Assembly (NCBI RefSeq): GCF_002770725.1
Contig: NZ_NQVN01000003.1
Span: 124,001-188,000, forward strand
DNA from: Pleomorphomonas carboxyditropha
GTDB lineage: Bacteria > Pseudomonadota > Alphaproteobacteria > Rhizobiales > Pleomorphomonadaceae
DNA length: 64,000 nucleotides
Direction of reading: 5' to 3'
Part shown: in pieces, positions 50,907-58,800 of the stretch
How the letters are laid out: each line of letters starts with the position of its first letter
Numbering within the stretch: position 1 is the first letter of the stretch
Notes under the pieces: generated by a model
The model's database searches: none
What the model saw: the letters and a program-made list of their open reading frames with translations, nothing else
What the model was told of the DNA's origin: nothing
Made by a program: the position numbers and the translations under genes

Positions 50907-51391
50907 GACAGGTATCCGATCGGTCCGGGCGGCGTCCTACACTTATGTGTCTCCCTCAATCGCCCGATGATTAATGCTCGCATGACGCTTTGACGCTGAC
51001 CAAGCATTGTCTGTCGATTATTGTGCAATTTTTGCAAGCGACGGGACCGGCAATCGCCGTGACCCGCCTTTTAAAATGCAGGATCTTTCTATCAATCGAT
51101 CGAGTTTTCAGGACCTGGGCGATGCCCAACTGCAAAATCGTATCCGATTGGCGCGTTCCCGCCGTTTTTGCAGTTTGTAGAAATCCCGATCAATCGCGGT
51201 GATAAGACCTTCGGCGATGGCGCGCTGTGCATCATTCCCGCCCATGACGAAGCGAGCGGCGGCGCAAAGGAGCGCCGCGCCGATTTCCCGAAGGGGAGAA
51301 AGGCACGCTCCGACATCCCGGGCGTGAACGAGCGCCAACGTCCATCCACGCACCGGCGGGACGGACGGCGCGGGTAAAGGCACGCTTTGCT
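50907..51391. repeat. Duplicated upstream segment, copy A (before the arabitol-type operon)
   Basis: About 485 nt that align, with small indels, to 58327-58800. The longest exact match is 25 nt (51121-51145 with 58540-58564). A 20-nt identical run (51017-51036 with 58436-58455) contains the palindrome TGCAA-TTT-TTGCA. Other shared blocks are GACAGGTAT...TCCGGGCGGCGTCCT at the left end and AAAGGCACG.TTTGCT at the right. It fills the 616-nt gap between mtlK (end of the smo operon) and the RbsB-type gene. Open frames on it (for example minus 51108-51383) are not conserved with copy B because of indels, so it is treated as non-coding control DNA. Confidence 0.75.
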
Positions 51392-51467
51392 TCGGCCTCT
51401 CCCGACTATGCTGGACGGCCGGCGCGGACCGGCGTGCGCCGCACGGACGGCCCCGCGCCGCCTTCCG

Positions 51468-52946
51468 TCACGCTGCCGCCAGATAGCCGGTGAGCACGGC
51501 GGCGCTGCCGCGGGCCCACAGGGCCTCGAGGTGCGCGGCGAACAGTTGCCGGAAGCGGGGCGATTCGCCCACGTCGCCGAAGATGTCATGCAGACCGTCG
51601 AGGAAGACCAGCGGATCGTCCTTGGCCCTGAGGGCGAGGCCGCGCAGGCGTTCCCAACTGTCGTCGTTGGGCGGGATGGGATTGCCCGCGTCGTCCGTTC
51701 CGGCGCAGTAGCGGCACCACAGCGCCGAGACGAGGCTGAGGCCGGTGACGTCGAGACCCTGGCGCAGGCGGTCGCGCGACGAGGGAATGATGAACTTCGG
51801 CTGGCGGTTGGAGCCGTCGAGGCACAGACGGGCGATGGTGTCGCCGACCTTGGGGTTGGCGAAGCGGTCGGCGACGAGCTCATAATAGGCGACGAGGTCG
51901 GTGTCGGGCACCGGCGGCACGATGGGAATGATCTCGGTGAGCTCGACCGTTTCGAGGAAGCGGGCAATCAACGGATTGGCCATCGCCTCGTGCACGCCGT
52001 GGATGCCCATCAGGGCCGCCGGATAGGCGATGGTGGCGTGGCCGCCGTTGAGGATGCGGATTTTCATCATCTCGTAGGGGGCGACGTCGGGGACGAAGGT
52101 GACGCCGACATCCTCGAACGGCGGCCGGCCGAGCGGGAAATGGTCCTCGACCACCCATTGCTTGAAGGGTTCGCAGAACACCGGCCAGTTGTCGACGATG
52201 CCGAATTCGTCCCGGAGCTTCTGGCGTTCGCGGTCGGTGGTGGCGGGCGTGATGCGGTCGACCATGGCGTTGGGCATGGCGACATTGGCGCCGACCCAGG
52301 CGGCGAAAGCGGGGTCGCTGAGCCCGGCGAGGCCGGTGAGAGTCTGGTGGGTCACCTCGCCGTTGCCGGGAATGTTGTCGCAGCTCATGACGGTGAAGGG
52401 CGGCACGCCGCGGTCGCGGCGACGGCGGAGGCCCTTGAGGATCAGGCCGAAAACGGTGCGCGGATCGTCCGGATTGCGGCCGTCGGCGACGATCTCGGGA
52501 TGGGCGGCGTCGAAGCGGCCGGTGGCGGAATCCAGGTAGTAGCCGCCCTCGGTGATGGTCATGGAGACGATGCGGATCTCCGGCGCGGCCAGCGTCTCGA
52601 CGAGGCGTTCGCGGTCCTCGACCGGGATGATGTCGACGACCGGGCCGATGACGCGGGCGGCGGCGGGGTCGCCGCCGAGCTCGACCAGCGTCGTCAGGTA
52701 GTCCTGCGGCTCGAGCGCCTTGCGCATGGCGGTGTCGGAATCGCGGACGCCGGCGCCGACGATCGCCCAGTCGTGGGCCTTGCCGGCGCTCATCAGCAGG
52801 TCGAGATAGACCTCCTGGTGGGCGCGGTGGAAGTTGCCGAGGCCGAAGTGCACGATGCCGGGTTTGAGATCGGCGCGGCGGTAGGCGGGACGGGTCACCG
52901 TTTGCGGCAGGCTGTCCAGCGCGGCGAGCGAAAGAGCGATAGGCAT
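51468..52946 (-). CDS. mtlK: Mannitol 2-dehydrogenase
   Basis: 492 residues, polyol dehydrogenase family. Oxidises mannitol to fructose with NAD+. GIVHFGLGNFHRAHQEVYLDLL, SMTITEGGYYLDSATGRF, and the catalytic pattern in EMMKIRILNGGHATIA. Last gene of the smoEFGKS-mtlK operon, the same order as in Rhodobacter sphaeroides, which supports the symbol. It is paralogous to the dehydrogenase at 45776-47245. The 120-nt gap to smoS shows no own promoter. Confidence 0.92.
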   Translation of the reverse strand: MPIALSLAALDSLPQTVTRPAYRRADLKPGIVHFGLGNFHRAHQEVYLDLLMSAGKAHDWAIVGAGVRDSDTAMRKALEPQDYLTTLVELGGDPAAARVIGPVVDIIPVEDRERLVETLAAPEIRIVSMTITEGGYYLDSATGRFDAAHPEIVADGRNPDDPRTVFGLILKGLRRRRDRGVPPFTVMSCDNIPGNGEVTHQTLTGLAGLSDPAFAAWVGANVAMPNAMVDRITPATTDRERQKLRDEFGIVDNWPVFCEPFKQWVVEDHFPLGRPPFEDVGVTFVPDVAPYEMMKIRILNGGHATIAYPAALMGIHGVHEAMANPLIARFLETVELTEIIPIVPPVPDTDLVAYYELVADRFANPKVGDTIARLCLDGSNRQPKFIIPSSRDRLRQGLDVTGLSLVSALWCRYCAGTDDAGNPIPPNDDSWERLRGLALRAKDDPLVFLDGLHDIFGDVGESPRFRQLFAAHLEALWARGSAAVLTGYLAAA

Positions 52947-53066
52947 ATGAGGCCTCCATCACGGCCGCGCGCGGACCCACCCGGGCCCGCCGGCGCGGCG
53001 CATCCTGTCAGGACGGACAGCCGCCGGCGGGCCGGCGGAGCCGTCGTCTTGCGTAAGTCCGGGACG

Positions 53067-56883: not shown

Positions 56884-58197
56884 TTACTTGATGTAGCCGG
56901 CCTTGGTCATTTCGCGGACCGTCAGATCCTGCGCCGCCTTGAGAGCGTCGTCGACCGACCTCTGACCCGCGAGAGCGGCCGAGAACTGCTGGCCGACGGC
57001 GGTGCCGATCCCCTGGAACTCGGGGATGGAGACGAACTGGCCGCCGGTGTAGGGCACCGGCTTGACCGTCGGATGGCCGGTGTCGGCGGCGTCCATCGCC
57101 TCGAGGGTCTTGGCGGCGAAGGCGGCTTCCTTCAGGTACTCCGCGTTCTTGTAGAGCGAGGTGCGGGTGCCCGGCGGAACGTTGGCCCAGCCTTCCTTGC
57201 CGGCCACCAGCTCGGTGTAGGCCTTGGAGGTCGCCCAGGAGATGAACTTCTGCGCGGCGTCGGCCTTGGTGGTGCCGGCCGGGACGGCGAGGTTCCATGC
57301 CCACAGCCAGTTGCCGTGGTTGTCGAGATCGCCGCTGGTCGGGAACAGCGCGTAGCCGACGTTGCCGGCGACGCTGGAGGCCTTCGGATCGGACACGAAG
57401 GAGGCGGCGACGGTGGCATCCATCCACATGCCGCACTTGCCGGACTGGAACAGCGCCAGGTTCTCGTTGAAGCCGTTGGAGGAAGCGCCCGGCGGGCCGG
57501 CGTCCTTCATCAGGCTGACGTAGAACTCGATCGTATTCTTCCATTCGGGCTGGTCGAACTGGGGCTGCCAGTTCTCGTCGAACCAGCGGGCGCCGAAGCT
57601 GTTGGCCGCCGCGCTGAGGAAGGCCATGTTCTCGCCCCAGCCGGCCTTGCCGCGCAGGCAGATGCCGTAGATGCCGGCGGACTTGTCGGTGATCTTGCGG
57701 GCGGCGTCGGCGATGAAGTCCCACTTGGGATTGTCGGGCATCTTCAGCCCAGCCTTGTCGAACAGGTCGGTGCGGTACATCACCATGGCGCTCTCGCCGT
57801 AGAAGGGCGCGGCGTAGAGCTTGCCGTCGTAGGACACCGACTGGCGGATGGCCGGCAGCAGGTCGTCCACGTCATAGTCGGCGCCGAGACCGTCGAGCGG
57901 CAGCAGCCAGCCCTGCTTGGCCCAGATCGGCACTTCATAGTTGCCGATGGTCATGATGTCGAACTGGCCGCCCTTGGTGGCGATATCGGTCGTCACCTTC
58001 TGGCGCAGGCTGTTTTCCTCGAGGGTCACCCACTCGATCGTGATGTCGGGATTCTTGGCGGTGAAGTCGTCGGTCAACTTCTGCATGCGGATCATGTCAC
58101 CGTTGTTCACGGTGGCAATGGTCAGAGTTTCGGCGTGGACCGCGCTCGCGATAACGAGCATCGAGGCCATGCCGAGCATTGCCGATTTCAGAGTCAT
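56884..58197 (-). CDS. smoE: Sorbitol/mannitol-binding periplasmic protein
   Basis: 437 residues. Signal peptide MTLKSAMLGMASMLVIASAVHA followed by a MalE-type solute-binding fold (TLTIATVNNGDMIRMQKLTDDFTAKNPDITIEWVTLEENSLRQKVTTDIATKGGQFDIMTIGNYEVPIWAKQGWL), very like SmoE/MtlE. First gene of smoEFGKS-mtlK. The upstream 600 nt hold copy B of the duplicated control segment. Confidence 0.94.
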   Translation of the reverse strand: MTLKSAMLGMASMLVIASAVHAETLTIATVNNGDMIRMQKLTDDFTAKNPDITIEWVTLEENSLRQKVTTDIATKGGQFDIMTIGNYEVPIWAKQGWLLPLDGLGADYDVDDLLPAIRQSVSYDGKLYAAPFYGESAMVMYRTDLFDKAGLKMPDNPKWDFIADAARKITDKSAGIYGICLRGKAGWGENMAFLSAAANSFGARWFDENWQPQFDQPEWKNTIEFYVSLMKDAGPPGASSNGFNENLALFQSGKCGMWMDATVAASFVSDPKASSVAGNVGYALFPTSGDLDNHGNWLWAWNLAVPAGTTKADAAQKFISWATSKAYTELVAGKEGWANVPPGTRTSLYKNAEYLKEAAFAAKTLEAMDAADTGHPTVKPVPYTGGQFVSIPEFQGIGTAVGQQFSAALAGQRSVDDALKAAQDLTVREMTKAGYIK

Positions 58198-58326
58198 TTC
58201 ATCCTCCCGGCGCCGTGGTGCCGGCGCCCGATGAACTATTTTGGCGATCCTGCCGGCCCAGTCTCCTCCGACGGGCCGATGGGATGTGAGTCATTATGAG
58301 TAATTTGCGGTCTCGTCATACACACA

Positions 58327-58800
58327 GACAGGTATTCGACCGATCCGGGCGGCGTCCTTGAACTTGGATTTCCCTCGCTCGCCCGATGGTTAATGCTCTC
58401 ACGACGCGCCGGCGCCGACCAAGCATTCTCTGTCAATTATTGTGCAATTTTTGCAGGTTTTAGGGCCGGCAACCGAAGCCGCTCACCTTTGAAAATGCAG
58501 GATCTTTCTATCAACCGATTGAATTTTCAGGGCTTGGACGATGCCCAACTGCAAAATCGTATCCAACGGGCGGCGTTCCCGCCGTTTTTCCCGTTCGTTG
58601 GATCCATCGCAGCGACGGGCGCTCCGGAGACGGCACGCTGTGCAACTTTCCCGGCGTCGATGAAGCAGGTAGCGATGCACCGTGGCGTTGCGCCGGTTTC
58701 TCAAGACGAAAAAAGCGCGCCCCGACATCCGCGAAGTGAATAAATGCCGATCTCTACGAGCCCGCAAGACAGACGGCACGATCAAAGGCACGATTTGCTC
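58327..58800. repeat. Duplicated upstream segment, copy B (before smoE)
   Basis: About 474 nt aligning to 50907-51391 (see copy A). It starts 130 nt upstream of the smoE ATG. The palindrome TGCAATTTTTGCA is at 58443-58455 and the 25-nt exact match at 58540-58564. Small indels break any shared reading frame, for example one base in the GGCGGGAACG... block next to that match. Likely control DNA shared by the two polyol operons. Confidence 0.75.

Follow-up and report, generated by a model that had tools for sequence, protein, structure and literature searches.

How do two neighbouring polyol operons headed by non-orthologous genes come to carry the same stretch of non-coding DNA, and does that stretch place them under common control? 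The question arises in a 64,000-nucleotide window of the Pleomorphomonas carboxyditropha genome (contig NZ_NQVN01000003.1, positions 124,001 to 188,000 of the forward strand), the whole stretch of DNA analysed here, to which all coordinates refer. A segment of about 480 bp lies upstream of each of two minus-strand operons, ahead of the binding-protein genes at 50851-49883 and 58197-56884. We propose, with a probability of roughly 0.7, that a duplicated multi-site control region of the D-arabinitol type puts both operons under one AraC-type activator. The activator, encoded at the far end of operon 1, would most likely bind a tandem core within the region (block IV), and upstream TGCA blocks held at fixed distances (blocks II and III) would probably assist binding, possibly by looping the DNA. 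The whole region appears to have been copied ahead of the adjacent operon of the smo type (sorbitol/mannitol/D-arabinitol), at a place taken by a SorC/DeoR-type regulator gene in most close relatives. As the same control region stands before both operons, both are expected to answer the same activator and inducer, and hence to be co-expressed.

A reading made from the letters alone, the sequence-only reading, had reported two segments of about 480 bp that align along their length, contain common exact runs and each precede the binding-protein gene of an ATP-binding cassette (ABC) polyol operon. These observations were borne out. Segments 50907-51391 and 58327-58800 (copies 1 and 2) are 74% identical across about 485 bp (BLAST expectation value, E, 2.9e-81), and a BLAST search of the 5.9-Mb genome with 50905-51400 returned two places at E <= 0.001, the query itself and 58327-58799. 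A repeat search recovered an ungapped 202-nt pair at 82% identity (50952-51153 and 58371-58572), with the flanking pieces in register. An identical 20-mer, ATTATTGTGCAATTTTTGCA, is found at 51017 and at 58436, and shuffled sequences had no match to it at up to three mismatches; the exact run GATGCCCAACTGCAAAATCGTATCC is also common to both copies. Frame-breaking indels, likewise noted earlier, are confirmed by stops in every frame between blocks I and V of all copies, except for one plus-strand frame of copy 2. No frame is open in all copies, and a shared protein frame, named in the sequence-only reading as an alternative source of the conservation, does not account for it. The protein-coding reading of the segment was rejected on these grounds.

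In the D-arabinitol-type ABC operon, here called operon 1, the segment forms the upstream control region. Among 100 related genomes it was found at E <= 0.001 in four: that of P. carboxyditropha, with two copies, and three relatives of the same genus (G003, G008 and G013), each with a single copy upstream of operon 1. Within the 20 family genomes, these four match at E 1.3e-50 or better and the remaining ones no better than E 0.014. The same four carry the operon-1 binding protein at 95% identity or more and the AraC gene at 89% or more, and they alone contain the core pattern at up to three mismatches, with two sites in the present genome, a single site in every other and no hit in the controls. 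The 20-mer ATTATTGTGCAATTTTTGCA occurs in three records of the genome_contigs collection, all Pleomorphomonas, from which the present genome was possibly left out. Binding-protein matches at 52-54% were found in G002 and as second copies in G013 and in the present genome. The latter (52%; contig C22 around 122323-128389, locus L093) lies with an ATPase and a permease, has a SorC-type gene nearby, and is part of a paralogous sugar operon, perhaps with another type of regulator.

Searches of the order and class for further operon-1 relatives scored at most five candidates per genome, in genomes drawn from a larger group. Across 397 genomes of the order (E <= 1e-105), a single operon-1 relative was found beyond the genus, at 79%, in a member of another family (G101); among 385 genomes of the class (E <= 1e-120), only the own genome was returned, and 20 genomes from the family of G101 yielded no further relative at the same threshold. 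G101 has all five operon genes in the same order (four proteins at 78-81%, XylB at 74%) and a convergent AraC gene at 64%. Its upstream DNA matches copy 1 best over 42 bp covering the core (76%, E 5.7e-4). The 33-bp core has six mismatches there and lies about 190 bp from the gene start, versus about 175 bp in copy 1. An AraC-type gene thus accompanies the site in 4/4 family genomes that possess it and in G101. The sequence-only reading had referred to AraC proteins; beside the two operons a single AraC gene was found (43189-44220), at the end of operon 1. An AraC paralog of about 55% identity occurs in most searched genomes of the genus and is convergent with a smoK-like ATPase gene in five loci (L081, L087, L088, L090 and L091). 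A scan of the loci around AraC paralogs of 53-57% (L081, L087-L091), allowing the core up to 13 mismatches, gave one match with 13 mismatches, in L087, which was taken as chance.

Gene order displays the locus without the second copy. In G008, the sequence runs AraC, xylB, dehydrogenase, permease, ATPase, binding protein, segment, tRNA-Arg, an RpiR-type gene and two further genes. In the present genome, the D-arabinitol-type (dal) operon is followed by copy 1, the smo operon, copy 2 and tRNA-Arg, and then by the same RpiR-type gene and two genes. The RpiR-type gene (60068-61009) is the nearest regulator identified on the operon-2 side, and it belongs to the old flank because it is also beside tRNA-Arg in G008. 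Beyond block I, copies 1 and 2 share about 160 bp that do not align with the relatives (0.67 identity vs an all-pair mean of 0.44), which favours duplication in this lineage. A check for attachment-site duplication found no tRNA repeat longer than 11 nt in the window. In G013, the stretch L005 11-1165 is perhaps an integrated element near the position that tRNA-Arg occupies in G008. The sequence-only reading had suggested a duplicated control region conferring shared regulation; the comparison with relatives upholds the duplication, and from it we infer the shared regulation.

The recipient, operon 2, differs from operon 1 in its leading gene. The two binding proteins fall into different families, RbsB-like versus UgpB-like (below cut-off), and non-orthologous genes therefore stand behind the same regulatory DNA, a pattern expected of promoter capture. 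The closest SmoE relative, in G007 (89%), has a SorC/DeoR-type gene directly upstream and divergent (PF04198; NCBIfam DeoR and LsrR matches below cut-off). A SorC-type gene adjoins smoE in four of the five smo operons of relatives with SmoE at 74% or more, co-directionally with smoE in three of them (SmoE 74-77%). Beside smoE in the present genome no SorC-type gene was found, and copy 2 occupies its place; the best own-genome match to the G007 SorC-type protein, at 46%, lies elsewhere, in the L093 area. To judge from these relatives, operon 2 may formerly have had another regulator. No match to the copy-2 segment was found upstream of G007 smoE.

The internal structure of the segment is consistent with a multi-site operator. 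Six blocks are common to the five copies (on the operon strand): I, II, III, IV (the core), an ATTAAT-type block termed m10, and V in the leader. The core reads TGCAAAAATTGCACAATAATCGACAGAxAATGCTTGGTCAGC in most copies, with a mean pairwise identity of 91% over 42 columns. Its TGCAC and TGCTT boxes start 21 bp apart in all five sequences compared (copies 1 and 2, G008, G003 and G101), and G013 and G008 have identical cores. In layout, though in layout only, the core resembles the tandem half-sites of a dimeric AraC/XylS protein. The excerpted account of MtlR, an AraC/XylS activator of a mannitol/arabitol operon, gives its site as AGTGC-N5-AGTAT-N7-AGTGC-N5-AGGAT and that of XylS as TGCA-N6-GGNTA-N6-TGCA-N6-GGNTA (PMC4514859). 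The m10 block, which contains ATTAAT in three of the five copies, could be a -10 region, and its promoter role is a guess.

Spacing within the inner part of the segment is strictly kept. The distances from II to III (54 bp), III to IV (44 bp) and IV to m10 (59 bp) are identical in all five copies, while those from I to II (91-100) and IV to V (97-100) vary. The 36-bp linker between III and IV has a mean pairwise identity of 0.41 and no gaps. No gap event falls in the 184-column inner region vs 14 in the four surrounding regions (P 0.009, under a crude model in which events follow variable columns). Because the inner distances are preserved despite a linker that is 41% identical, a protein bound at these blocks is suggested. 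The length of the segment, far beyond that of a normal promoter according to the sequence-only reading, would be explained by its make-up, a series of short blocks that keep a fixed spacing and look like protein sites.

Whether the AraC protein is the one that binds has an alternative answer, which we consider unlikely: the region might instead be occupied by a different regulator, such as the RpiR-type protein (60068-61009) or one of global carbon control. Blocks I, II, m10 and V are unlike AraC half-sites, and the RpiR-type gene lies near the segment in both this genome and G008. It was not found, however, in the stretch examined around the segment in G003 (17 kb) or in the first of those in G013 (15 kb), whereas the AraC gene goes with the segment in all four family genomes and with the core in G101, co-occurrence having been compared for AraC only.

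The second copy also bears marks of maintenance. At columns without variation among the three ortholog copies, copies 1 and 2 differ in 26/199 cases, vs 36/117 at the other columns (Fisher P 2e-4), and 1/315 circular shifts of the conserved-column mask gave so few differences. With fewer differences at conserved columns, copy 2 seems to be kept where the ancestral region is kept. Blocks II and III are identical between the two copies and blocks I, IV, m10 and V are 90-94% identical, against 56-84% for the linkers.

Several observations weigh against a single AraC-type activator acting through both copies. Of 183 columns without variation among the four dal copies, 15 are changed in copy 2, whose distance to its start codon exceeds that of copy 1 by 73 bp. 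A sigma-70 scan of both strands of both copies found no promoter. The inner block distances correspond to 5.14 and 4.19 turns of 10.5 bp, so the spacing is fixed yet not cleanly in phase. The likeness to the MtlR site, a comparison of DNA sites, is one of layout alone. Taken singly, the core match to G101 is weak for copy 2 (E 0.032) and for G003 (E 0.44). In G013, the AraC gene is not beside the operon but about 11 kb beyond XylB, and 12 further family genomes have an AraC match of lower quality (E <= 1e-30, no more than 57% identity), in a family-wide regulator search that covered the operon-1 AraC gene only. The smo operon on contig 2 of G017 (SmoE 74-77%) likewise shows no SorC-type gene within the 1.5 kb inspected, and the present genome is therefore not alone in lacking one. 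Finally, the core tree joins copy 2 with G003 (65% support) whereas in the full tree copies 1 and 2 stand apart from the other copies (62%); the tree of five copies did not date the duplication.

Some of these points would also fit a decaying by-product of rearrangement, with smoE driven by its own promoter in 58198-58326, which we regard as rather improbable. About 130 bp between copy 2 and smoE is unlike the copy-1 leader (0.38 identity in the compared part), the copy-2 branch of the core tree is longer than that of copy 1 (0.154 vs 0.097), and the 15 altered dal-constant columns point the same way. Yet the differences between the copies avoid conserved columns and the blocks are better kept (90-100%) than the linkers. 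In a check for a native smoE leader, the 130 bp (58198-58326) likewise had no similarity to the G007 smoE upstream DNA.

A terminator-like hairpin with a T-run occurs on the plus strand in both copies and is present in form in all five; no plus-strand gene for it to end was found. It is perhaps the mark of an antisense or divergent transcript, which is a minor point here. The sequence-only reading had allowed for a small RNA or a long leader. In its most explicit version, the segment would encode a plus-strand RNA of about 140 nt, read from a promoter overlapping the core (CTGACC-17-TATTGT, identified by eye) to the terminator at 51149-51169 or 58569-58588, and the two copies would be paralogous small RNAs containing blocks II and III. 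Three base pairs of the hairpin are constant in 5/5 copies, and 5/43 pairs of the predicted consensus fold are changed on both sides. Nevertheless, single-sequence folds are near those of shuffled sequences (z -0.52 and -1.05), the RNAalifold covariation term is unfavourable (+2.24, from five sequences only), and the inner III-IV linker is free in sequence. Chance alone would give 0.7 and 1.1 terminator-like sites in the respective regions scanned. Rfam at the gathering threshold reported only tRNA, and the promoter scan of both copies reported nothing. Upstream matches to G101 with E below 0.01 lie over the core only, the sole upstream element found to be kept in another family. A small RNA or long leader is accordingly a very doubtful reading.

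Least probable is an origin of the segment in a mobile element or repeat, or in the remains of a tRNA-Arg integration that carried the smo operon: tRNA-Arg does adjoin copy 2, and near the segment in G013 (L005 11-1165) a translated open reading frame apparently reads from a tRNA-like stretch into a primase-like protein, but the only matches at E <= 0.001 in the 100 related genomes are copies 1 and 2 and the single copies of G003, G008 and G013, the 20-mer is confined to three Pleomorphomonas records, the plasmid collection and the tRNA repeat check gave nothing, and copies at unrelated loci, which the sequence-only reading had named as a refuting outcome, were not found in the genomes searched.

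Table 1. Coordinates in the window of the two control segments, their blocks, the hairpins and the surrounding genes.
Feature	Coordinates	Strand	Remarks
Control segment, copy 1 (ancestral place)	50907..51391	-	upstream of D-arabinitol-type operon; same operon-relative place in G003, G008, G013
Control segment, copy 2	58327..58800	-	upstream of smo-type operon, between smoE and tRNA-Arg
Block I, copy 1	51223..51233	-	TGCACA box, outermost conserved block
Block I, copy 2	58637..58647	-	
Block II, copy 1	51129..51145	-	GGATACGATTTTGCAGT; identical in 5/5 copies
Block II, copy 2	58548..58564	-	
Block III, copy 1	51073..51090	-	AGAAAGATCCTGCATTTT; pattern GAAAGATxxTGCA
Block III, copy 2	58492..58509	-	
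Block IV (core), copy 1	50995..51036	-	TGCA boxes, tandem TGC half-sites at 21-bp spacing; putative site for an AraC-type dimer
Block IV (core), copy 2	58414..58455	-	
Block m10, copy 1	50962..50979	-	GAGCATTAATCATCGGGC; 93% mean pairwise identity, 5 copies
Block m10, copy 2	58381..58398	-	
Block V, copy 1, likely leader	50909..50938	-	
Block V, copy 2	58329..58358	-	
Terminator-like hairpin and T-run, copy 1	51149..51169	+	three GGC/GCC pairs unchanged in 5/5 copies
Terminator-like hairpin and T-run, copy 2	58569..58588	+	
RbsB-like binding protein, first gene of operon 1	49883..50851	-	
Sugar ABC ATPase, operon 1	48315..49811	-	
Sugar ABC permease, operon 1	47269..48300 (approximate start)	-	
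Mannitol/D-arabinitol dehydrogenase family enzyme, operon 1	45776..47245	-	
Xylulokinase XylB, operon 1	44202..45590 (approximate start)	-	TIGR01312 above cut-off
AraC-type regulator	43189..44220	+	convergent with operon 1; candidate activator for operons 1 and 2
SmoE-like binding protein, leading operon 2	56884..58197	-	named by gene order; NCBIfam matches below cut-off
smoF, smoG, smoK and smoS-like genes	53067..56555	-	smoS-like: L-iditol 2-dehydrogenase, NF005472 above cut-off
MtlK-like enzyme of the mannitol dehydrogenase family, at the end of operon 2	51468..52946	-	
tRNA-Arg	58998..59071	-	borders copy 2 here, the single copy in G008

A bolder version of the proposal would have a looping multi-site AraC module, its internal geometry fixed, act as a portable unit that was copied whole, replaced a repressor switch and merged two polyol pathways of overlapping substrates into one regulon, together with a plus-strand transcript ending at the hairpin. 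In this full form we hold it to be improbable. Even the simpler proposal, that a duplicated D-arabinitol-type region brings both operons under one AraC-type activator, would make the locus a readable instance of regulatory rewiring, in which the donor region, the recipient operon, the type of regulator in relatives and the insert-free arrangement are all visible in sequenced relatives. The locus allows tests of how much of a long control region of the AraC type a portable unit needs, and of whether a single inducer is of benefit to two transporters and two dehydrogenases that act on overlapping polyols. This case was not described among the matches listed in literature searches on promoters of the genus, AraC operons for polyols, smo, and promoter capture or rewiring.

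Three known polyol systems offer points of comparison. As described in the part of the MtlR report consulted, PmtlE of Pseudomonas fluorescens, inducible by mannitol, arabitol and glucitol, serves a polyol operon with an AraC-type activator, as is proposed for the present operons, and it has two direct TGC half-sites roughly two turns apart, 22 bp by our own count vs 21 bp in the present core, with an A-tract after a TGC box (PMC4514859). Unlike PmtlE, the region described here has further conserved blocks that extend to about 190-200 bp upstream of the core, is duplicated, and differs in the letters of its half-sites.

The smo locus of Sinorhizobium meliloti, in the excerpt available, has the smoEFGK, smoS and mtlK-like gene content of operon 2, but it is controlled by the negative regulator SmoC, whereas operon 2 has no SorC/DeoR-type neighbour and a copy of the D-arabinitol-type control region instead (PMC10433430). 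There, SmoEFGK carries D-arabitol and MtlK oxidises both mannitol and D-arabitol, after which D-xylulose needs XylB (PMC10433430). Such overlapping polyol metabolism would fit AraC activation of both operons.

Enterobacterial plasmids hold the third counterpart. A relative of the operon-1 binding protein (66%) occurs on five plasmids, with dalD and xylB annotated as neighbours in the two that were inspected (NZ_CP137168.1 and NZ_CP143509.1); these neighbours are the reason why operon 1 is named D-arabinitol-type, and D-arabinitol would be its substrate. Although the dalD-xylB-ABC blocks resemble operon 1 in their binding protein and in the dalD and xylB genes, they have a SorC-type regulator, another gene order and no AraC gene in the annotated stretch, and the segment itself had no match in the plasmid collection. 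Two such blocks, comprising a SorC-type regulator, dalD, xylB and an ABC transporter (L104 4825-12511 and L105 4825-12511, with the same protein accessions in both), adjoin arsenic genes and insertion sequence elements on conjugative plasmids of Citrobacter and Klebsiella.

Finally, the locus can be set beside promoter capture. For promoter propagation or capture and for the transfer of non-coding DNA, the works reportedly cited are Matus-Garcia 2012 and Oren 2014. Rewiring of regulation by promoter capture or by transfer of non-coding DNA is already known, and in the portion of the source consulted, as is proposed for the present genome, an operon falls under the control of another through duplicated or exchanged non-coding DNA (PMC11111574). 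What sets this case apart from that account is that a multi-site region of roughly 480 bp was copied next door, with the regulator gene and the pre-insertion arrangement both in view. It looks like a clear natural case of the known process of promoter capture, with an unusually complete before-and-after picture.

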